A DNA stretch of 12,608 nt from Eutypella sp. D-1 (lineage: Eukaryota; Ascomycota; Sordariomycetes; Xylariales; Diatrypaceae), in NCBI GenBank assembly GCA_023313575.1, contig JAJTTP010000065.1, positions 1 to 12,608 on the forward strand, given 5' to 3'. A model generated the notes under the pieces. That model was not told where the DNA came from. It worked only from the letters and a program-made list of their open reading frames with translations, and searched no databases. The position numbers were made by a program, and so were the translations under genes. Shown here piece by piece: positions 1,374 through 12,192 of the stretch. The first letter of the stretch is position 1, and every line of letters begins with the position of its first letter.

Positions 1374-2810
1374 TGGTTAATTATAATAGATGATTGGGTT
1401 TCTTTTTATGCTAAAACAAAGGTTTATTGTATTACTTTTTTAATATCACTTTTTATACCTAAATATTTTCAAATTTATTTCACAAATTATTCGCTACAAG
1501 GTCGCCCTAATAGTGGAAAAAATGTGGTATTGGAAGGTGTCCATAAAGAAATACTCAAATCACGTCCTGAGTTTATTGAGTGGTTTGTAGGCCTCTGTGA
1601 AGCAGAGTCTAATTTTTTGATAAGAATAAGAAAAAATGAAAAAGGAGCAGTGTCAGGTTTTGAATTCGTATTTAGAATTTATTTACATCGAGATGATAGA
1701 AAAACTTTAGAATTCATAAAAAATACTTTAGGCTGCGGGAGATTAAATGCCGAAAGAGAGGTTTTAGTTTTTACAATATCTCAACTAAGCGATATTGAAT
1801 CCGTATTGATTCCTATATTTGAAAAATTTCCGTTAAACACTACCAAATATTTGGATTATTTAGATTTTAAAAAAGCTTTTTTTATGTTTAAATCTCTGCG
1901 TAGCCTAAAGAATAATGAGTTAAGTTTACTAGAGATTAATTCAAGTATTATTGAGTTAAAGGATGGTATGAATACTAAAAGAATGAATTTTTCTTTACCT
2001 GATTATCATAGCGTGAGAATTACAGGTAACTATTTAATAGGTTTATTAGAAGGAGATGGGTCATTTTATTTAAATAAACACGATTTGTCTGTACGTGTTT
2101 CACTTGTTACTACTACAGTAAATAGAATAGTTTTAGAGAGAATTCGTGAATTTATTTTAAGCTTATTGGATGAACATTCTTATTTACTCGGTAGTACTAC
2201 TAAACTAATCAGCATTAATGATAAAAAGGTAGTAAAAAATAATCAAAAACCTTTCTCTATTTTAGAAATCTCACAAATAGATTTTATTTGTAATATATTA
2301 ATACCTTATTTTGATAGTATAGAATTTAGAACTAAAAAATTCCAGGATTATCTGGATTTTAAAACCATAGCTTTTTTAATATTAGAAGGTAAATATTTAA
2401 CTGATAAGGGTAAAGAGTTAATTATTAAATTAGGTAATACTATGAATAATAATAGATTATCTACTAATTCTAATCCTGTAGTTTTAGATGAAACCTTTAA
2501 ATCAGTGTTAAGTAATTTAATTAAATCAGAACCTTTAATACATATAGATTCTGAAGGTAGAGCTATGATAATATCGAATAAAAAATACATTCGATCTACT
2601 TATATTATAAAAGTTTATTTTTTAAACGGTTCTTTTAATTATTTTACTAATGGAATTTCATGTGCTAAATTCTTACATATTAGTGATAATACTGTAACTC
2701 AACGTTTAAATGATGGTAAACCTGTAAAAAATAAAGAAGGGCTGGTAGTGGCTCAATGTATAAAAAGAATAAAAGTTTACTCTTCTTTAAAATCAAATTC
2801 TTATAAATAG
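1374..2810 (+). CDS. LAGLIDADG homing endonuclease with C-terminal HTH, intron 437
   Basis: Double-motif LAGLIDADG protein that would cut intronless cob alleles and may assist splicing. Motif 1 is FVGLCEAESNF (about 1578-1612), with Glu in place of the usual second Asp; motif 2 is LIGLLEGDGSF (about 2034-2066). Two similar folds of about 150 residues follow the motifs. The C-terminus (SCAKFLHISDNTVTQRLNDG, about 2658-2717) looks like a NUMOD1-type helix-turn-helix DNA-binding module. The frame opens at TGG 1374 and ends at TAG 2808-2810 (478 codons). It has no ATG near the 5' end, so the start could be GTG 1524 or an ATA/ATT/TTA codon at 1377-1386. An N-terminal hydrophobic segment (ITFLISLFIPKYFQIYF) precedes the nuclease. 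It is separated from the upstream exon by the catalytic core. The frame is intact. Confidence 0.88.
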   Translation, partial: WLIIIDDWVSFYAKTKVYCITFLISLFIPKYFQIYFTNYSLQGRPNSGKNVVLEGVHKEILKSRPEFIEWFVGLCEAESNFLIRIRKNEKGAVSGFEFVFRIYLHRDDRKTLEFIKNTLGCGRLNAEREVLVFTISQLSDIESVLIPIFEKFPLNTTKYLDYLDFKKAFFMFKSLRSLKNNELSLLEINSSIIELKDGMNTKRMNFSLPDYHSVRITGNYLIGLLEGDGSFYLNKHDLSVRVSLVTTTVNRIVLERIREFILSLLDEHSYLLGSTTKLISINDKKVVKNNQKPFSILEISQIDFICNILIPYFDSIEFRTKKFQDYLDFKTIAFLILEGKYLTDKGKELIIKLGNTMNNNRLSTNSNPVVLDETFKSVLSNLIKSEPLIHIDSEGRAMIISNKKYIRSTYIIKVYFLNGSFNYFTNGISCAKFLHISDNTVTQRLNDGKPVKNKEGLVVAQCIKRIKVYSSLKSNSYK

Positions 2811-2844
2811 ACGACTGCCTAAGAACCGCCATTGGTTAATTTTG

Positions 2845-2897
2845 TATTACTAACCTTATTAGTGCTATTCCTTGAATAGGGCAGGACATAGTTGAGT
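2845..2897 (+). CDS. cob: cob exon, cytochrome b V-I-T-N to D-I-V-E-F
   Basis: This 53-nt exon reads ITNLISAIPWIGQDIVEF, a hallmark stretch of cytochrome b around the quinol-oxidation (Qo) side, with Trp encoded by TGA. It begins in phase after GT of the 8-nt exon and ends one base into the Phe codon (gag T). Cytochrome b is the membrane-embedded haem-carrying subunit of respiratory complex III. The 5' boundary is fixed by P10 pairing; the 3' boundary follows from in-frame joining with 4168 plus the T/G rule. Confidence 0.93.
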
Positions 2898-3838
2898 TCA
2901 TAAACTTTATTATTAATTTATGTTTAGGTATTCTTATTTTATTTTTTATAGACAAATATTTATTATATTCAAGAGTTTTTACCAAGGAAGCTTCTTTACC
3001 TACAATAGGGGTTGTTCATAAGAATGCGTTGAAAAAAGGTAATAAATCTTTAAGATTGGATAAAAAAGATTATATTTCAATTCCTTCATCTTTTTTAGCC
3101 TTTTTAGTTGGATTGATTGATGGGGACGGATATATCCAGATAAGTAAAACACCAAAAGGATTTATAACCATGAAATTAGTTTTATCTCTTCATTTAGAAG
3201 ATATTTCTACTTTAGAATATATTCATTCTGTTTTAAAGTTAGGTAAAATAAATATATATAAAGATTTAAGAAGCCCTACTTGCAAATTAGTAATTAATAA
3301 AACTGATTTACAAGAAGTATTGTTTCCATTATTTATATATAATAAAATCTTTTTTTTAACTAATACTAGAATAGATCAGTTTAATTTAGCTATATATATC
3401 TTGAAAAATGATCTAAAATTATATAGTGAAATTCCTAGTATTAATAATATACCTGCTGTTTTTGAAATACCTAAAAATCCATTTGATTATACATTATTAT
3501 ATTTTTTTAAAAATTGAATTGTAGGATTCACCTGTTCAGAAGGTTCATTCTTTATTAAATGTAATAATGATGGTTGTTTTCAATTGAAACAACGAATACA
3601 TTCCAATTTATTTGAGGCTTTTAAACTAATTTTTGATACAAGTAGAAAGATAGGTACAACTGACAACTATAATCAATTTGGTGTCAGTTCTAAATCTGAT
3701 ATACAAAAAGTTATAAATTTTTTCTCGTTTTCTGGCTTACACCCTCTAATCGGGTTAAAATATATACAATATATTCAATGATTAAATAACTTGCGTGAAA
3801 GCTCACGTTATAGTAAATTAAATTACCCTCAAAAATAA
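2898..3838 (+). CDS. LAGLIDADG homing endonuclease/maturase, intron 490
   Basis: The frame continues without a stop from the upstream cob exon and ends at TAA 3836-3838, the usual arrangement in which the protein is cut from a cob-intron fusion. Motif 1 is FLVGLIDGDGYIQ (about 3094-3132), with both acidic catalytic positions present. Motif 2 is IVGFTCSEGSFF (from about 3518), where the position expected to be the acid reads Glu. TGA at 3515 and 3779 must be Trp for the frame to be whole, which supports code 4. It is clearly related to the endonuclease of the next intron (4590-5501): both share SFLAFLVG.IDGDGYI, an STLEYI segment and an FFLT..RI..+N block. There is a TTG at 3029 if an internal start is used. 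No frameshift is seen. Confidence 0.9.
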
Positions 3839-3879
3839 ATTAATATTGTGGATAGTTTGTCGTAACCTAAATATAAATT

Positions 3880-4112
3880 AATAATCGCAGTGGGCTCCTT
3901 AATAATAAATTTATTAGAGGCATAATGGGGAAAATTACAAGGACATTTAATAAAAAACAATCCACCGATATATTAAATTATTTGTAGCGGAACTTAATTC
4001 GGTATATAAAAAGGGATTAAGAACGTTCAACGACTAATGAGTGAGTTATACCAACAATAAGCTCAACACGATATCCCCAAAATCTTCGTTAGGAAGATTT
4101 AAGAAATAGTCT
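3880..4112 (+). ncRNA. Group I intron catalytic core (cob-490)
   Basis: P7 is GACTA (4032-4036, inside GTTCAACGACTA) with TAGTC (4107-4111). A P8-like hairpin AATCTT / AAGATT spans 4081-4099. The stretch GGGGAAAATTACAAGGAC at about 3925 resembles the P4-P6 junction region. Core limits are approximate, and P3 was not fully traced. Confidence 0.7.
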
Positions 4113-4167
4113 AAGACATCTCAAAAAGGTGTAAAGTATAAATTAAACATTATACGTATAAGATAAG

Positions 4168-4239
4168 TCATTTGAGGTGGATTCTCTGTTAATAATGCCA
4201 CTTTAAATAGATTCTTTGCTTTACACTTTTTATTACCTT
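4168..4239 (+). CDS. cob: cob exon, cytochrome b I-W-G-G-F to L-L-P-F
   Basis: This 72-nt exon reads [20 protein letters not shown], then LLP, and is a near-invariant piece of cytochrome b; the His of ALHF is a haem ligand in the family. It completes the Phe codon opened at 2897, and ends one base into the next Phe codon (cct T). The 3' boundary is supported by P1 pairing with the following intron. TGA encodes the Trp. Confidence 0.93.
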
Positions 4240-4550
4240 ATTGCTAAGATATGGGGTATAAAAATTTACCTAATTGCTTGAAAGACTATAGAATATTATT
4301 TTTGAAATAGTTAAAAAACTATATGTTAATAAGCAGCAAAGTATACTAAAAATTTATTCTACGTTTAATTAAAGTTTCTTATATACTTAATATAATAACT
4401 AAATAGCTGTAAATTGGTCGCTTCGCATAAAAGCCAGATATATCTATTTTCATATTAATTAGATAATTAGGTTAATTTTAAGTATATAGGTTCAACGACT
4501 ATACGGTAAAGTAAAATATAACAAGTATATTTATAATAAATAGTCTAAAC
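4240..4550 (+). ncRNA. Group I intron P1 and catalytic core (cob-562)
   Basis: P1 pairs exon TACCTT (4234-4239) with GGGGTA (about 4253-4258), with G.T at the splice site. Junction segments AATTGCTTGAAAGACTA (about 4272) and AATAAGCAGCAAAG (about 4328) resemble IB-type P4-P5 and J6 sequences. P7 is GACTA (4497-4501) with TAGTC (4541-4545). Confidence 0.75.
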
Positions 4551-4589
4551 ATTGTCGTGAGATAATGATAGTATATCGTTTCTAGGTTA

Positions 4590-5501
4590 ATGGATATACT
4601 TTATAATAATGTTGTATGTTTTATCATTCCTGAATTAGTGGCAGAATTTAATAATTTAAAAACTAAAACTTACGATTATTGAGTTAAAAAAATAGAATTA
4701 ACTAAAACTTCTGTTACTAATAAAAGGGAATTAATACATCCTAATGTGGATGTTAGCTTTTTAGCTTTTTTAGTTGGTGTTATTGATGGTGATGGTTATA
4801 TCTTTGCTAGAAGAAGATCTAATGGATATATAGAGTTTAATTTGGTTATAGCTCTTCATAATAGAGATTTGTCTACTCTAGAGTATATATTAGGTAAATT
4901 ACATTGCGGGTCTATTGTTAAAGTAGATAATGACAGCAGTAAGTTTGTTTTATATTATTACGAATTAAAGCATGTGTTGGTACCTTTATTGTTAAAACAT
5001 AATTTATTTTTCTTAACCGATAATAGAATAAAACAATACAATTTACTTTTGTATACTTTAGAAAATAATCTTAAAAAGTGAGAGTTACTACCCGAAGTTA
5101 TACCTAACTACAGCCCTTTTGTTTTTAACAACCCTGTTGATATTTTGTCAAAGGTCTGATACTTTAACAATTGATTGGTTGGTTTTGTAGTGGCAGAAGG
5201 TTCATTTTTCGTACAAGCCAATAAAGAAATAGGGTTCAGTATTAGTCAGAAGGGAAATAGTATTTTAATGAAAGCTATCTATCTTTTGTTTGAACCAAGT
5301 AGAAAAATATATTATTCAGAGAAGAATAATGCATATCTAGTTCGAATGGCAGCAGTTAAAGATATCCAAAAGGTTATTAACTTTTTTTCATTTGAAAATC
5401 ATTACCCATTAATAGGTTACAAAAAAGAATCTTATTTAACTTGGTTAAATAATCTTAAGGAATCAGACAGATACAAAAAACTAAATTTTCCTCAAGATTA
5501 G
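4590..5501 (+). CDS. LAGLIDADG homing endonuclease, intron 562
   Basis: 303-residue double-motif endonuclease. It starts at ATG 4590 (frame open from 4572 after TAG) and ends at TAG 5499-5501; TGA at 4680, 5079, 5148 and 5163 are read as Trp. Motif 1 is FLVGVIDGDGYIF (about 4761-4799) and motif 2 is LVGFVVAEGSFF (about 5172-5207). The N-terminal 50 residues are a leader without a recognisable domain. Its closest relative in the window is the intron 490 protein, with similar spacing and a matching C-terminal YPLIGYK / HPLIGLK block. Unlike that protein it is not fused to an exon and must have its own initiation. The frame is intact, consistent with an active or recently active endonuclease. 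Confidence 0.9.
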
Positions 5502-5941
5502 TATATAATAGTGAATAAGTGTTCTCAGTTTTATAATAATACTTCTTCTTGTAGTAAAAAAGAGTGCCTTCGTATAGCTTGGCTTATATTTCTTTTAAAG
5601 GGGTGCATACTCTGGTTTGTCGTTATTAAGTACTACTAGACTATGTCAAAATCATCTTTATTTTTGAATAAAAAGTTAAGTTTATTTTTCTTTACTACTA
5701 AAATTAGCAGTTTGTATCATAATAAAGGTAAACTTTGTTGTTTCCTTTTGTTGTGGGATAACTTACTTCACATATGCAAGAAGGAGGCATACTTCGTCGT
5801 GATGAGGTTAAAACAAAATTGCAATGCCTCTATTTAAATAGATGGATATAGATATCTTTATGCATTAATATATCTTTATTAATATATTTTGGTATTCTAT
5901 TTACTTACATACAAATTTATTATTATAATTTAATATAATTG
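5502..5941 (+). other. 3' tail of intron 562, no gene
   Basis: No supported coding region. An inverted pair GAGGCAT (5784-5790) / ATGCCTC (5824-5830) forms a 33-nt-loop hairpin, and AGAGT (5561-5565) can pair with ACTCT (5609-5613) flanking a G+C-richer loop. The last 110 nt are AT-only to AT-rich up to the splice site. These could be P9-type extensions or the scar of a former insertion; I cannot tell which. Confidence 0.5.
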
Positions 5942-5998
5942 TCGTTTTAGCAGCATTAGCATTAATGCACTTAATAGGACTCCATGACACTGCAGGGT
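5942..5998 (+). CDS. cob: cob exon, cytochrome b V-L-A-A-L to D-T-A-G
   Basis: This 57-nt exon reads VLAALALMHLIGLHDTAG, including the second conserved His region of cytochrome b, and completes the Phe codon opened at 4239. The 3' boundary is set at T5998 because AGGGTC (5994-5999) pairs with GGCCCT (6010-6015) with a T.G at the splice base. Cutting two bases later (6000) gives the same protein and is the alternative. Confidence 0.92.
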
Positions 5999-6687
5999 CT
6001 TCGTTATTTGGCCCTAAATTTCTATATATGAAAGCTCTTTCATCTCTTAAGACGACCTTGGCTTTTATATTACCTAATTTTAAACCCAATACGCGAATTG
6101 GTCCTCACAATGAGGAGGTTATCTCTGTTATAGTAGGTTCATTATTAGGGGATGGATACGCTGAGAGATTGCAAAACGGAGGTGTAAGAGTAAGATTTAG
6201 ACAGCAAGTAAAGCATAAGGAGTATATATTCTGGCTACATGGTTTTTTATATGAAAGGGGTTATTGTACTAAAAACTTACCTGTTCTTTTTGAGCAAAAA
6301 TATGGGGATAAAACATATCAAGCATATCGTTTTGGTACCCTAGGGTTTTCAAGTTGAATGTGATTATATAAATTGTTTTACACTAATCATAAGGTCAAAG
6401 TTGTACCTAAGAACATTTCTGAGTTATTAACACCTTTGGCGTTAGCCATTTGAATAATGGATGATGGTACTTGAAAACCTGGTGTGAGAATAGCTACTAA
6501 CTGTTTTACAAAAGAGGAGGTAGAACTTTTGTCATTAGCCTTAGATTCAAAGTTTAATTTAAAAAGTAGCTTGCATAAAAATAATAGTAATTATCAATTG
6601 TATATTAAACAAGAATCTCTCCCTTTATTCAGAAAATTAGTGTTGCCATATATGGTACCTAGTATGCATTACAAGTTAGGATTATAA
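5999..6687 (+). CDS. LAGLIDADG_2-type homing endonuclease, intron 619
   Basis: About 230 residues, continuous with the upstream cob exon and ending at TAA 6685-6687. Motif 1 is IVGSLLGDGYAE (about 6130-6165) and motif 2 is LAIWIMDDGTWK (about 6442-6477). Between them are a basic stretch with RVRFRQQVKHKEYIFWLHGF and a KTYQAYRFGTLGF segment typical of the compact LAGLIDADG_2 family found in fungal cob, rnl and algal introns. TGA codons at 6355, 6361, 6451 and 6469 are Trp. Both motif acids are present and no frameshift is seen, so it could be an active endonuclease. It belongs to a different LAGLIDADG lineage from the proteins of introns 437, 490 and 562. Confidence 0.92.
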
Positions 6688-6783
6688 CATATATATAAGT
6701 AGTTGTGAGATTCAAGGTTGAATCTCTAAGTTTCCGGGAGGAACTTAAATCGTAATATCTGAACGATATTTTGGTTTAGCAAT

Positions 6784-6920
6784 GCCGGGTGAATACGGTC
6801 AAAGATTAATATATTTAACACAAGACCGTCGGGCATATTAATCCTTACTTTGTCTAAAATATGGTCGCTACAGACTGGACCACCGGTGGTATTCTTTATA
6901 GAATGCTTAATGTACAGTCG
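6784..6920 (+). ncRNA. Group I intron catalytic core (cob-619)
   Basis: P7 is GACT (6873-6876) with AGTC (6916-6919). P8 is ATTCT / AGAAT (6891-6904). A hairpin ACGGTC (6795-6800) / GACCGT (6824-6829) precedes them, and CCGGGTG (6785-6791) pairs with CACCGG as P3 with one bulge. It shares the 18-nt segment 6903-6920 exactly with intron 429 (891-908). Confidence 0.8.
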
Positions 6921-6931
6921 AAGTGGTTATG

Positions 6932-7536
6932 CGAGTAACCCTATAGGTGTATCAGGTAATTATGACAGATTACCTTTTGCTCCTTATTTCTTATTTAAAG
7001 ATTTAATAACAATCTTTATGTTTATATTTGTGTTAAGTTTATTTGTGTTCTTTATGCCTAATTACCTGGGTGATTCAGAGAACTACATTATGGCTAATCC
7101 AATGCAAACACCGCCTGCTATTGTTCCTGAATGATATTTATTACCTTTCTATGCTATATTAAGATCTATTCCTAATAAACTATTAGGTGTTATTGCTATG
7201 TTCAGTGCGATATTAGCTATAATGTTATTACCTATTACAGATTTTGGTAGATCAAAAGGTTGACAATTTAGACCTTTAAGTAAGATAGTTTTCTTTGTTT
7301 TTGTAGCTAATTTCTTAGTTTTAATGCAATTAGGTGCTAAACATGTAGAATCACCATTTATAGAATTTGGACAAATAAGTACTATTTTATACTTCGCTCA
7401 ATTTGTATTTATAGTTCCTTTTGTAAGTCTACTAGAAAATACTTTCAGAGATTTATCTTCTTTAGATAAATGATTAGAGTTCAAGATAGATTCATACTTC
7501 CAGTTTGAAAACTTGAGGTTTTTTTTTATTTATTAG
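6932..7536 (+). CDS. cob: cob 3' exon, cytochrome b C-terminal half
   Basis: This exon completes the Ser codon and reads [19 protein letters not shown] through the last membrane helices, including the conserved [16 protein letters not shown], with the Trp as TGA at 7132. Hydrophobic segments follow in the expected order ([63 protein letters not shown]). The family usually ends soon after LENT. Here about 28 more residues follow, reading through a TGA at 7471 and a nine-T tract (7519-7527) to TAG 7534-7536. Frame 0 is open across this tract and leads into the downstream acidic gene, so one miscounted T would change the C-terminus. If TGA 7471 were a stop, the protein would end at SSLDK. Confidence 0.93.
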
Positions 7537-7568
7537 AGTCTAAGGTTTTTGGAAAAGTATGGAATTTT

Positions 7569-8006
7569 ATGGTTAATCTTTTAATAATAATATTTCTATG
7601 TTCTCTTTTATTTATTTCTACAGCTTTTGCTGAAAGTCCTTCCGATTCTGATGACGAAATGGGTGATTTTGATGAAGATAGCGATTCTGATGTAAGTAGT
7701 AATTCTGATCAAGATAGCGAAGATGATGATAGAAGTAGCCAAAGGGGTAATTCTGATCCAGATAGGGAAGATGCTGCAAGTGATATTTCTGAACAAGAAA
7801 GCGATGATGATGGTAGAAGTAGTGTTGGTATGTCAGATGATCTTTGATCAGGAGAACCTAGAGAATTAAGTACTACAACTATAAGAAGTTTTATAAATAA
7901 TATAGATGATCTTATACCTGATTTAGATACTGATGAAGAAGTGCAAGAGTGAAACCAGCGTAAGTCAGATTTAGAAGATGAGTTATCTAGAAGAAATGAT
8001 AAATAA
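7569..8006 (+). CDS. Predicted secreted/anchored Asp-Ser-rich acidic protein (unrecognised)
   Basis: 145 residues from ATG 7569 to TAA 8004-8006, using TGA as Trp at 7845 and 7950, so it is adapted to code 4. The N-terminus MVNLLIIIFLCSLLFISTAFA followed by ES looks like a signal peptide or a single membrane anchor with an A-F-A cleavage-like site. Then comes about 70 residues of Asp/Ser/Glu with repeated blocks such as NSDQDSEDDDRSS and NSDPDRED ... ESDDDGRSS. A less biased tail follows (STTTIRSFINNIDDLIPDLD). The frame is actually open from ATG 7470, inside cob, so a longer form overlapping cob or a frameshifted extension of cob is possible. I recognise no family. It lies between cob and trnC, where ascomycetes usually have only spacer. 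It could be a structural acidic protein, an expressed orphan or a repeat-driven chance frame. Confidence 0.6.
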
Positions 8007-8439: not shown

Positions 8440-8601
8440 ATGTGGTTTGAACGGTGGTTCTTATCTACTAATGCTAAAGATATTGGAACGTTGTATTTAA
8501 TCTTTGCACTATTTTCGGGGTTATTAGGTACAGCGTTTTCTGTACTAATCAGGATGGAGCTTAGTGGTCCAGGTGTACAGTATATTGCAGATAATCAATT
8601 A
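8440..8601 (+). CDS. cox1: cox1 exon 1, cytochrome c oxidase subunit 1 N-terminus
   Basis: 54 codons read [20 protein letters not shown] and onward through the first membrane helix to [13 protein letters not shown], unmistakable Cox1, the catalytic haem-copper subunit of complex IV. ATG 8440 is the first ATG in frame. The preceding residues KSSIS resemble the MSSIS start I recall for Neurospora Cox1, so initiation at TTG 8422 is the alternative. The exon ends at A8601 because GTGCG, the group II 5' consensus, follows and the protein resumes as Y-N-S-I-I-T at 12116. Confidence 0.95.
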
Positions 8602-11600
8602 GTGCGCCGAACGTCCGTGACTGCTTATACGGATTATTTCCTTTGTATAATCTCGGCATCAAAGTTAGGCAAGGGGGAAAGCCCTGAGCTGAACACAGCA
8701 TCTTTGCTAGAAGGAGTTTTTAGGATTAACTTAGATGTTCTAAATTATCTTCGAGCCGCTTTATCTAAGGTAAAAGTTATACTACTTGAAGTCTACTTAA
8801 AAGATGTCTATTTTATCGGACCTAGTCTTGCTAAGGATTGGACTAGACAAAATGAGTTAGGATTAGATAATTGGGTTCTAACTAAAGGACATTTTGATCG
8901 GGGTGTAGAATATACTCTTAATTTAGGGAACGGACTACCTAAGGATAAATTAGAAGGAGCAGTTAAGTGGAACTTCGGGATTGCCTACAGTCAGAGATGA
9001 TCACGGCAACGGAAGGATCATAGTACAATATATTTTTTCTCTCTGGTAAAGCATTTAGCGTTTAGAATAAATGAGAATAAATTATTTGGAAGGGTCCTAG
9101 GAAAATATGCATCTACTTATACTAAGGTTGCTGCTTTTGACAGTACAATTAAATTTAACAGCCAAAGTAAGGTTGATAAACTAAGTGCTTATGACAAAAA
9201 ACAACAAATGTTACAACTTACAAAAGTAGCCTTTAAAAAGAAAATATACACTCAACTTTATGACAAGAATCTTTATTTACTAGCTTATGATATGTTGACT
9301 GTTCAACCTTGTAAGGTAGTAATTACAGGTATAGATATATTATCCTTGAAAAACATCTTCGGATGTTCATTACTGCATCCTAATATATTTGGGAGAGAGA
9401 TAAAACTTTCGGATATTTTGGATATAATAATTAGAATAAAAGAAGGAAACTATAAATTTACAGACTTAAGTCTAAAAGGGGGACCTAAAAAGTTTACTAT
9501 TCTTAATAATTTCTCTGTAGCTAAAGATATTTTATTAATTAAAGCAATAGTCATTTTATTAGAAGCTTTTATGAGCCCTTATTTAAGTCTTTACCTCAAA
9601 GCTTTCGTCCAATTATCGATAACCCTAAGGGTAAAATAACACATTTATCCTTCCCTTCAGCAAATACTCATGAATATGCTTTAAGGGAGCTTAAGTTAAA
9701 ATTAAAAGGTGTCAAATGAATTATAAAGATAGATCTATTTAAATATTTCGAGCATATGGACTTTAACGTATTAATGTCTATTTTAGAAGAAAAATTAGAA
9801 GACAGAAGATTTACAGATTTGATAAGAAAGGCTTTAAACGCAGGTCATTTTCATTATTTTGGTGTAAAATCTGAAGTATCTGATATACCGATTAAGAACT
9901 TAAGATCTTTGTTATACCCTATACTTATTGACATCTTCTTAGAACGTGTAGATAATTATATTTCTTCTTTGGAATATCAATTCACCAAAATGTTCTCTAA
10001 AGAGATTAAATTATCTTATGTAAGAGTTGGAGATCAGTTAATTTTAGGTGTAATAGGTTCTTATTCGGATTGTGTAAATATTATGAATCTGCTTATAGAT
10101 TTCTTTAAACAAAATTTGTTTTTAGAGGTATCCAAAGAAGCTTTTGAGATTATTAACTTATCTAATACAAAGGAAGGATCATCAATAATTTTCTTAGGGG
10201 TTCGTTTATCTATTATAGATCTTAAACTTTCCTCTTTCAAAGACACAGTAACGTTTACAGCTCCTATAAATAGTATTGTATCTAAATTAACCGAAGCAGG
10301 TTTCCTGAAAGGTAGAAAATCTATACCTAAGTTAACTTGAACTCCTTTTAATAAGGATGTGATTATTTTGCTTTATCAGTCTTGGTTCCTAAGTATAATG
10401 GATTACTACGGTAAGGTAAGAAATAAATATCAGTTGGCCTCTTATTTATATAGGGTATTAAATTCTTCTTGCGCTAAACTCTTGGCTTCGAAGTATACAC
10501 TTTCTTCACAAAAAAAGGTGGAGAAAAAATATGGTAGCATACTACCACGATTGGGAGCTACGTCATCGATAACTCGAAGCCCTATAGTAAATAATGATTT
10601 AGCTCGGGTTGTCAATGGACTAGATAAAGCAAGTAAAAAAAGACTAAGTACTATGTTATATTTAGTGGAAATTAAGAGATTTGGTTCAAGCAAAGCAGCT
10701 AATGGGCGTAACGAATCTGCCTTGTCCACCGTAGTATTAGGGAAATGAGTTGAAAGTGGAAAAGCTTTTAATGTGAAAGCTTATATAGCAGGGTTTATCG
10801 ATGCGGAAGGAAACTTCTTTATAAAAGTAGTTAAAAGTTCTACTAAGAGAATTGGTTATTCGGTTCAACTTTCATTTGGCTTAATACTACATGAAAGAGA
10901 GTTAGATTTACTTAAACTAATTCAAGCGGAATTATCAGGAGTAGGTTACATTTCAGAAGGTATACCTGGGAGAGTTCATTATCAAATTTCAAGTATAAAG
11001 GATCTCGAGATATTGTTTGTTCTTTTAGATGAATTTCCTTTGTTAACTCGAAAAATGAAAAATTATCGGCTATTCAAAGAAGCGTGGCGTATGATATCTA
11101 ATAAGGAACATTTAATTAAAGAGGGTTTGATTAAAATAGTATCTCTCAAAGCAGCTTTTAATAATTCAGGTTTATCAAAAAACTACAGGAATAATTTCCT
11201 AATTTAGTGCCTCTAGCTGAAATATGTACACCAGAAGAACAAGACATAGAACGTAGTATCTATGATCCTAGTTGATTAGCTGGATTCGCAGATGGGGAGG
11301 GTTGCTTTTTTGTTCAATTGAGAAAAGCTGCTGGTTATAAGGTTGGCTATCAAGTATCTATGAAATTCCAAATAACTCAGGATATTTTAGATAAGAAGCT
11401 TTTACAAAACATAGTGGAATACTTAGGTTGTGGTTATTATAGAGAAGTAGCCAAAAATAGTGATGGTAGATTTGAAGTAGAAAGTGCCAAAGAGATATTA
11501 GCTAAAATTATTCCTTTTTTGATAAATATCCTTTATTAGGGACAAAAGCCAAAGATTGTGTCGATTTTAAACAAGTAGCTTTACTTATAGAAAAAAAGGC

Positions 11601-11676
11601 TCATTTAACTCCGGAAGGTTTAGAACAAATTAGTAAAATAAAAGCCGGGATGAATAGAGCTAGAGGTAAAGATTAA
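8602..11676 (+). CDS. Composite intron protein: degenerate RT + domain X + LAGLIDADG (frameshifted)
   Basis: Reads on from cox1 exon 1; about 1025 residues if three single-base shortfalls (near 9591, 11197, 11516) are discounted. RT-like part (about 9190-10240): [10 protein letters not shown], a [15 protein letters not shown] segment matching the RT 'DK.VQ..+...LE' block, then after the first shift SFRP and the motif A region [14 protein letters not shown], with the catalytic Asp at 9732. Motif C reads VGDQ (10026-10037) where YADD is expected, and the PQG of motif B is gone, so polymerase activity is unlikely. Domain X (about 10329-10545) is well kept: [43 protein letters not shown]. After a 75-residue linker comes a double-motif [23 protein letters not shown] (10776) and [13 protein letters not shown] (11274). 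Frame 0 is open from about 9591 to 11204, spanning RT, X and the first motif. No HNH endonuclease domain is seen. TGA 10338 and 10746 are Trp. Confidence 0.85.
10771..11676 (+). other. LAGLIDADG endonuclease segment at the C-terminus of the group II protein
   Basis: About 300 residues with two pseudo-symmetric halves. Half 1 starts [17 protein letters not shown] and runs to the [15 protein letters not shown] spacer typical of fungal LAGLIDADG_1 enzymes. Half 2 runs from [17 protein letters not shown] to [15 protein letters not shown], ending MNRARGKD and TAA 11674-11676. The first half is in one frame with domain X. The second half is split into two further frames, each restored by one extra base: near 11195-11199 (AATTTCCTAAT) and in the T run 11515-11520. 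GTG 10773 could serve as a separate start, so it may instead be a nested stand-alone gene. Length and motifs are those of a normal double-motif endonuclease. Confidence 0.85.
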
Positions 11677-12016
11677 TTTGAAGACGCTCCGCATAAATTA
11701 GTCTTATTTTGATTTGTTAAAGTAGAGTTGTAGATGTTGTAACTTTTTTGTTAAGGTTATTTTTTCTTAATATGTATATTTTTTTTTTATTATTTTTTTA
11801 TATTTTTTTTAATTCTAAAGAGACTAAACTAGTTAGTCAGTGGGCATACTAAAGGTAAGTTGGCTTTATTCTTAGATCGAAGGATGTAAGTAGCAAATTT
11901 AATTAGTATTGCCAAGGGAGGAGGAGGGTATAAAATATAAATATATAATTAATTGATAGGTACTAATATTAAGGAGAGATGTAATTACTTTAAGCACTAT
12001 GTTAGTATTTTCTGGA
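11677..12016 (+). other. Group II intron 3' part between protein gene and domain V
   Basis: No gene. It has an AT-rich, T-run-laden stretch (about 11750-11815) followed by structured intron sequence (GTGGGCATAC, GGGAGGAGGAGGG) that should be the 3' side of domain IV and flanking linkers. I did not fold it. Confidence 0.6.
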
Positions 12017-12050
12017 GAGCCGTATGAAGGGAGACTTTCACGTACGGTTC
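12017..12050 (+). ncRNA. Group II intron domain V
   Basis: 34 nt, exactly the canonical length: GAGCCGTA (12017-12024) pairs with TACGGTTC (12043-12050), with the AGC catalytic triad at 12018-12020 and the CG bulge on the 3' side (12041-12042). This is the active-site hairpin of group II ribozymes. Confidence 0.96.
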
Positions 12051-12056
12051 GGGAAA

Positions 12057-12115
12057 GGGGTAGATACTTTTACTTTACCTAATGCAAGTAAAGAGTGGTA
12101 TCTACTCTAGTTCAC
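12057..12115 (+). ncRNA. Group II intron domain VI and 3' splice site
   Basis: GTAGATAC (12060-12067) pairs with GTATCTAC (12098-12105), and TTTACTT pairs with AAGTAAA inside it. A12109 is a candidate bulged branch-point A, at about the usual distance from the intron end (AC at 12114-12115). The branch assignment is tentative because the lower stem is weak. Confidence 0.65.
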
Positions 12116-12192
12116 TACAATAGTATCATAACAGCTCATGCTATACTAATGATATTTTTATGGTTATGCCCGCTTTGATCGGAGGTTTCGGT
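12116..12192 (+). CDS. cox1: cox1 exon 2 (one base short)
   Basis: It encodes YNSIITAHAILMIFFMVMPA and then LIGGFG of Cox1, which needs 78 nt, but only 77 are present. The frame runs from TAC 12116 to ATA-TTT-TT, then must shift to read ATG-GTT-ATG. The shortfall is in the five-T run 12155-12159. A conserved essential exon should not be frameshifted, so this is a sequencing undercall, a non-functional copy, or (less likely) RNA editing or programmed frameshifting. The His of TAHA lies next to the haem/copper centre region of the family. The exon ends in T12192 before a group I-type intron. Confidence 0.9.

Follow-up and report, generated by a model that had tools for sequence, protein, structure and literature searches.

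The window analysed here, a 12,608-nucleotide contig of the ascomycete Eutypella sp. D-1 (JAJTTP010000065.1, assembly GCA_023313575.1), is mitochondrial DNA (mtDNA) of fungal type, with cox1, cob, introns and TGA read as tryptophan. Its cox1 gene contains a group II intron whose reading frame joins a degenerate reverse transcriptase (RT), a maturase domain X and a LAGLIDADG homing endonuclease; all features described below lie on the forward strand. Cox1 exon 1 (8440..8601; 54 codons ending in ...VQYIADNQL) was recognised by its translation and a match to NCBIfam CtaD_CoxA. The intron (8602..12115) is inserted after cox1 nucleotide 162 (numbering starting with the ATG at 8440), at the site ADNQL|YN, and exon reading is restored past its 3' end as YNSIITAHAIL. 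Its ends, GTGCG at 8602 and AC at 12115, fit the group II rule GUGYG...AY. Domains V and VI (12015..12115) were located by Rfam RF00029 (Intron_gpII) and by folding. The 34-nt domain V at 12017-12050 scored 59.2 bits against a gathering threshold of 40; in a fold of this end of the intron, domain VI shows a bulged A. Domain V is preceded by GGA, a marker of class IIA1 according to PMC13190283, and IIA1 is the probable class of the intron. The last seven exon nucleotides (intron-binding site 1, 8595-8601) form seven pairs with TAATTGG in a hairpin loop (exon-binding site 1, EBS1, 8868..8874), the sole site in the first 650 intron nucleotides able to pair with this exon end. For EBS2, several candidates were found.

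With TGA as tryptophan, the intron frame at 9543-11207 is open over 554 codons, including three TGA, compared with a longest open run of 189 in the shuffled intron (six frames, 1000 first-order Markov shuffles). Two Pfam domains in it lie above their cut-offs: Intron_maturas2 (1.3e-20; 74.2 bits, cut-off 20.8), which marks maturase domain X at 10248..10595, and LAGLIDADG_1 (8e-20). The region ahead of X, 9238..10247, was assigned to a degenerate RT through a motif table, a tree and a fold match to group II RTs. Motif A lies at 9720-9767, the place of motif B at 9897-9935 and that of YADD, which here reads VGDQ, at 10026-10037. Across the clade of related fused proteins, motif B is lost in all eight rows, and nine of nine lack the second aspartate of YADD. 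In this motif and tree count, P0008 was labelled as fused by its RT part alone (its record ends inside X), P0003 shows neither motif A nor motif B, and no use was made of P0009 or of the GIY-YIG records P0002, P0012, P0019 and P0023. The NCBIfam group II RT/maturase model matched residues 45-313 (3.3e-15), but with 56 bits against a curated cut-off of 300. The RT-X rows of fused proteins and of the canonical P0010, P0011 and P0022 align throughout. By this alignment and by Pfam, the place after X that holds the DNA-binding and HNH endonuclease (D/HNH) part is occupied by LAGLIDADG, D/HNH not being a defining part of all group II proteins. The first-pass annotation had proposed that RT, X and LAGLIDADG share one frame, that the RT is dead and that LAGLIDADG stands in place of D/HNH, and these proposals hold; of the Pfam profiles expected for it, Intron_maturas2 and LAGLIDADG_1 were recovered and RVT_1 fell below its cut-off.

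Domain X and the endonuclease are separated by a linker (10596..10772) without D/HNH homology. Linker lengths vary from 35 to 170 residues and are widely different save among close relatives (P0027 begins inside the linker), and in the P0007 model residues 552-574 of this stretch have a predicted local distance difference test score (pLDDT) under 50. Nevertheless, one motif, [IVL][KN]RF, is present in 11 of the 11 linkers examined, here as IKRF at 10671-10682. A second motif, GKYAST (9100..9117), lies where protein-level constraint seems to start; in the form G[KR][YF]xST, it occurs upstream of the RT in all seven clade sequences that reach that far, and a looser R-aromatic pattern is found in four of seven canonical ones. 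GKYxST and the linker KRF are both possible processing sites, with a putative likeness to the cleavage sites of mitochondrial presequences; a literature search on such sites brought up nothing related.

The assembly to which the window belongs, as contig C62, totals 48,474,653 bases in 72 contigs, among them many mitochondrial ones that overlap. Its mtDNA is spread over redundant contigs C33-C69 (G000), which differ mostly through dropouts in short runs. Five full copies of the cox1 group II intron are present (the window, C40, C42, C43 and C52), and the fused gene is the only group II maturase locus in the assembly. The window copy has three frame breaks, near 9565 in the RT region, near 11176 in the first LAGLIDADG repeat and near 11513 in the second. 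C40, C42 and C43 are free of them and carry a single frame of 918 codons (918 amino acids), which runs from the cox1 ATG through intron domains I-III, RT and domain X into the first repeat. The C52 copy is free of them too, but it has an earlier frame break of its own through a dropout, one of many in that contig. Since the window's breaks are without counterparts in C40, C42 and C43, they are most simply consensus errors; cox1 exon 2 of the window (12116..12189, translated in two frames) holds a break of a similar sort. A stop or frame break between X and the start of the LAGLIDADG part was looked for, and none was found in the three clean copies.

We found 25 proteins with the 918-residue copy, six of which bear both Intron_maturas2 and LAGLIDADG_1 (P0001 and P0003-P0007; 37-84% identity). 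A profile search with A2 returned five proteins, all among those 25. P0035 and P0107 also carry both domains (among the matches listed, 120 of 450, to the LAGLIDADG part). Domain X and LAGLIDADG are therefore read in one frame in at least eight database proteins, contrary to the possibility that LAGLIDADG is always unlinked to X in homologues. A further relative, L036, is a single IMG/VR contig, and a second viral scan yielded that contig alone again. It has an intact domain V (61.2 bits) and keeps the EBS1 loop, as well as, by reading, its stem with one G-U pair. The junction DNQL|VRR is common to all five sequences that carry the cox1 exon (the window copy, L036, P0001, P0004 and P0005). In L036, a frame of 2133 codons (1444-7845) extends over a cox1 exon and the 5' region of the intron, in which a further LAGLIDADG gene and two of GIY-YIG type are in frame, and then over RT-X and the beginning of the fused LAGLIDADG. 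Group II genes of RT-X-HNH-like type flank the fused gene on both sides in cox1. GIY-YIG/NUMOD domains also lie in frame, within or before the RT, in P0002, P0006, P0012, P0019 and P0023 (precomputed Pfam), so that homing genes seem to insert frequently into this intron.

The RT-X half and the LAGLIDADG half each form one clade, and their groupings agree. Adjoining the fused LAGLIDADG clade is a branch of 10 free LAGLIDADG proteins (support 96/89). Their host introns were not found: P0073 gave none in viral contigs, and the best own-genome match was 44%. The LAGLIDADG tree drew on the best 120 of 450 matches and kept 118 of 121 rows (P0005, P0035 and one more were too short); it is without P0026, P0028, P0029, P0041 and P0107, counts P0027 as fused though its record begins inside the linker, and has a bootstrap that is not fully settled. 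The canonical P0014 had no relatives in viral contigs. None of 52 prokaryote loci (L048-L099, mostly Patescibacteria, whose LAGLIDADG proteins belong to this class in a broad sense) contained a fusion, although the scan patterns were derived from the LAGLIDADG part, so that other fusions may escape. The single ORF with both profiles in that scan was L036, which scored largely through its other, nested LAGLIDADG.

The first LAGLIDADG repeat (10773..11191; Pfam 8e-20 at 10785-11084) is in frame with X and matches I-PnoMI, I-PanMI and the I-OnuI class in the PDB. It is followed by a TAA stop (11192..11194) in five of five full assembly copies. The second repeat (11195..11676) continues in a clean frame past the TAA, as read in L012; in the window copy, it lies in the next frame at 11195-11539 (LAGLIDADG_1, 5.5e-19). 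The fold and the catalytic acids of the I-OnuI class are present, and both putative catalytic glutamates are invariant in the five relatives in which the two repeats are complete (P0001, P0003, P0004, P0006 and P0007). These five also have both repeats in one chain, as is characteristic of the class, which the gene studied here does not. Judged by its sequence, the fused endonuclease is I-OnuI-like. The first-pass annotation needs correction here, the endonuclease not being intact in this genome. Related sequences P0001 and P0028 have glutamate at the place of the TAA, and P0028 shows, by reading, few differences from this gene over its 197 residues. The TAA therefore looks recent. As it separates the repeats in all five copies, the endonuclease of this genome is probably truncated and dead, with intact ones in relatives. 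Read-through, or separate production of the two halves, is possible but unsupported.

To look for selection on the parts of the protein, we compared the L012 copy with L036 by the Nei-Gojobori ratio of nonsynonymous to synonymous rates (dN/dS; 95% bootstrap intervals in brackets). The ratio is clearly below 1 in the RT (0.40, 338 codons; 0.26-0.57), domain X (0.28, 100 codons; 0.14-0.63) and the second repeat (0.25, 153 codons; 0.13-0.47). It is 0.25 in the pre-RT part after GKYAST (60 codons; 0.10-0.77) and 0.08 at the start of the first repeat (22 codons; 0-0.51). The read-through of domains I-III (0.98, 79 codons; 0.39-3.8) and the linker (0.80, 65 codons; 0.47-1.6) have higher values, a rise that is suggestive, the intervals being wide. 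By its motifs the RT remnant is dead, yet it is under purifying selection, as would be expected of a folded RNA-binding part.

We conclude that this protein architecture is real, under selection and apparently undescribed, and that it belongs to a small group II intron family at one cox1 site. We consider it likely that the protein is an RT-dead group II protein that kept domain X and captured an I-OnuI-type endonuclease at its C-terminus. Several observations weigh against this. RVT_1 reached only an E-value of 0.4, and the RT-X model has a mean pLDDT of 68 and had canonical RTs in its alignment. On the RNA side, the domain V of the C52 copy, in a contig rich in dropouts, scored 39.2 bits, under the gathering threshold. 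The dN/dS values come from a single sequence pair compared by a simple method, and the intervals of the short parts are wide. P0005 loses LAGLIDADG after its first part, and in L036 the fused LAGLIDADG is broken by a short insert, from which it follows that the endonuclease was repeatedly lost. Finally, the TAA argues against mobility of the intron in this genome.

We considered four other explanations. The one that survives best, though improbable, is that the protein of this genome is already a pseudogene heading for loss, X included, with splicing left to host factors. The TAA in all five copies and the vanished RT motifs are what this would predict, but 918 codons remain open up to the TAA and domain X has the low dN/dS given above, a ratio that is itself blind to recent loss. 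Somewhat less probable still is a free LAGLIDADG gene or group I intron nested in the RT/maturase frame and in frame by chance, without a working fusion. Nests of mobile genes are common, and the additional homing genes towards the 5' end of the L036 intron and the GIY-YIG of P0006 are examples. Against chance, the join is in frame in at least eight database proteins, each of the two halves forms a single clade and their groupings match, and one linker motif is constant while the rest of the linker varies; no group I intron match was found in L012 and L036 at E-values up to 0.1, with Rfam missing some subgroups. To a similarly small degree, we allow that the LAGLIDADG part serves RNA splicing rather than DNA cleavage, making the whole protein a splicing factor. 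LAGLIDADG maturases of group I introns exist (they are named in PMC8393795), and the protein was kept by selection along with X. Splicing alone, however, would not require the invariant pair of putative catalytic glutamates in all five complete relatives, and in the present intron the repeats are separated, yet the splicing signals persist. An assembly artefact joining unrelated genes is very improbable and was rejected for the join: the consensus of the window contig is poor, its frames being broken in several places, cox1 exon 2 among them, but the same join recurs in four other contigs and in independent data sets, including the database relatives. A separate start for the LAGLIDADG part was likewise rejected, as four of 11 linkers are without methionine, with unusual starts still conceivable.

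Returning to the captured C-terminal endonuclease, we propose that the group II protein gave up reverse transcription and D/HNH, that its RT fold and domain X were retained to act as a maturase on the intron encoding it, and that a whole I-OnuI-type endonuclease was added to it as a translational fusion. Translation starting in cox1 exon 1 would yield a precursor, with probable cleavage near GKYxST and perhaps a second cut at the linker KRF. Domain X would still help splicing. Where relatives have both repeats intact, their endonuclease would cut intronless cox1, and DNA repair would copy the intron in, replacing retrohoming. Judged by domains and selection, maturase function combined with DNA homing is the likely role. 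In this genome the intron is likely spliced yet immobile, because the TAA probably ended endonuclease activity. That a lineage of single origin swapped retrohoming for DNA-level homing while keeping its maturase, with the fusion replacing D/HNH and the polyprotein being cut at KRF into a maturase and a separate endonuclease, seems to us an evenly balanced proposition. The first-pass annotation spoke of a transitional form; this fits the architecture, not a fleeting state, since members of the lineage share 37-84% identity with the copy in the window.

Elsewhere in the window, three two-repeat LAGLIDADG_1 frames and one LAGLIDADG_2 frame lie at 1374-6684, upstream of the last cob exon (Pfam), and another LAGLIDADG intron gene (Pfam LAGLIDADG_1) follows cox1 exon 2. 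In total, 150 LAGLIDADG_1 matches were scored in the assembly, redundant contig repeats included. A 178-codon frame (7470-8006) overlaps the cob end; its product has a hydrophobic start and is then very acidic and rich in Ser and Asp, and it had no Pfam match above cut-off. No group I intron was found in the window by Rfam at gathering threshold, and no tRNA by a scan with the bacterial code. Contig C33 contains a second group II intron (L026:114-1575) with a two-repeat LAGLIDADG frame of 366 codons directly before domain V, no RT seen and a group I intron after it, so that the classic RT-less type stands beside the fused type in the same assembly. Annotation by one best domain hides hybrids like the fused protein.

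How group II introns passed from retrohoming to endonuclease-driven mobility is the question that this protein addresses. PMC13190283 (2026) describes 753 LAGLIDADG group II introns in 13 families, all stated to be without RT/maturase proteins, and argues from this mutual exclusivity that retrohoming was lost before the endonuclease was gained. In the parts seen, PMC13026550 reports no RT/maturase remnants in Ulva IIB introns with LAGLIDADG homing endonucleases (LHE), PMC4424553 and PMC8393795 describe LAGLIDADG group II introns as not encoding RT, and PMC4894602 and PMC6279837 hold no further precedent. We found no description of a fusion of X with LAGLIDADG in the literature covered, which lay outside subscription journals and supplements. 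The first-pass statement that such introns occur mostly in rRNA genes and without RT needs widening: RT-less cox1 cases are published (PMC13190283), so rRNA genes are not the only site. If our interpretation is true, the reported exclusivity is broken: the endonuclease joined a maturase, not an emptied intron. The fusion bears on the proposed order of loss followed by gain, both parts being in one protein here, and both the order of events and the maturase need of such introns become testable with real sequences.

Like the families of PMC13190283, the intron combines a fungal mtDNA group II ribozyme with a two-repeat LAGLIDADG gene, and two of those families, cox1-381 and cox1-926, are IIA1 and lie in cox1. 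By their description, those families lack RT/maturase, and their gene is found in domain IB, III or IV, whereas here X and an RT remnant are present, LAGLIDADG follows domain X as a fusion within an RT-derived protein and the cox1 site is different. With the canonical fungal IIA RT-X-D/HNH introns (P0010, P0011 and P0022), it shares the order up to the end of X and reading in frame from the upstream exon; it differs in its lost RT motifs and in the LAGLIDADG enzyme that replaces D/HNH. Loss of RT motifs with retention of X is also seen in MatK, plant nuclear maturases and O.i.I2 (MatK and O.i.I2 according to the accessible part of PMC4424553), but these apparently gained no homing endonuclease. 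I-OnuI, I-SmaMI, I-PnoMI and I-LtrI, some of them fused to rps3, share the fold and the two repeats found in the relatives, unlike which the present enzyme is fused to a group II maturase and split by a stop in this genome. Two published introns are closer by description. Ceratocystis nad2 i5 (PMC8208691) also has RT and LAGLIDADG in one group II intron, in domain IV, but these are described as interrupted by another intron and no fusion is stated in the text available. Erysiphe necator nad5-i4 (PMC8260586) encodes, like the intron described here, a hybrid of RT and homing endonuclease, but with GIY-YIG as the endonuclease.
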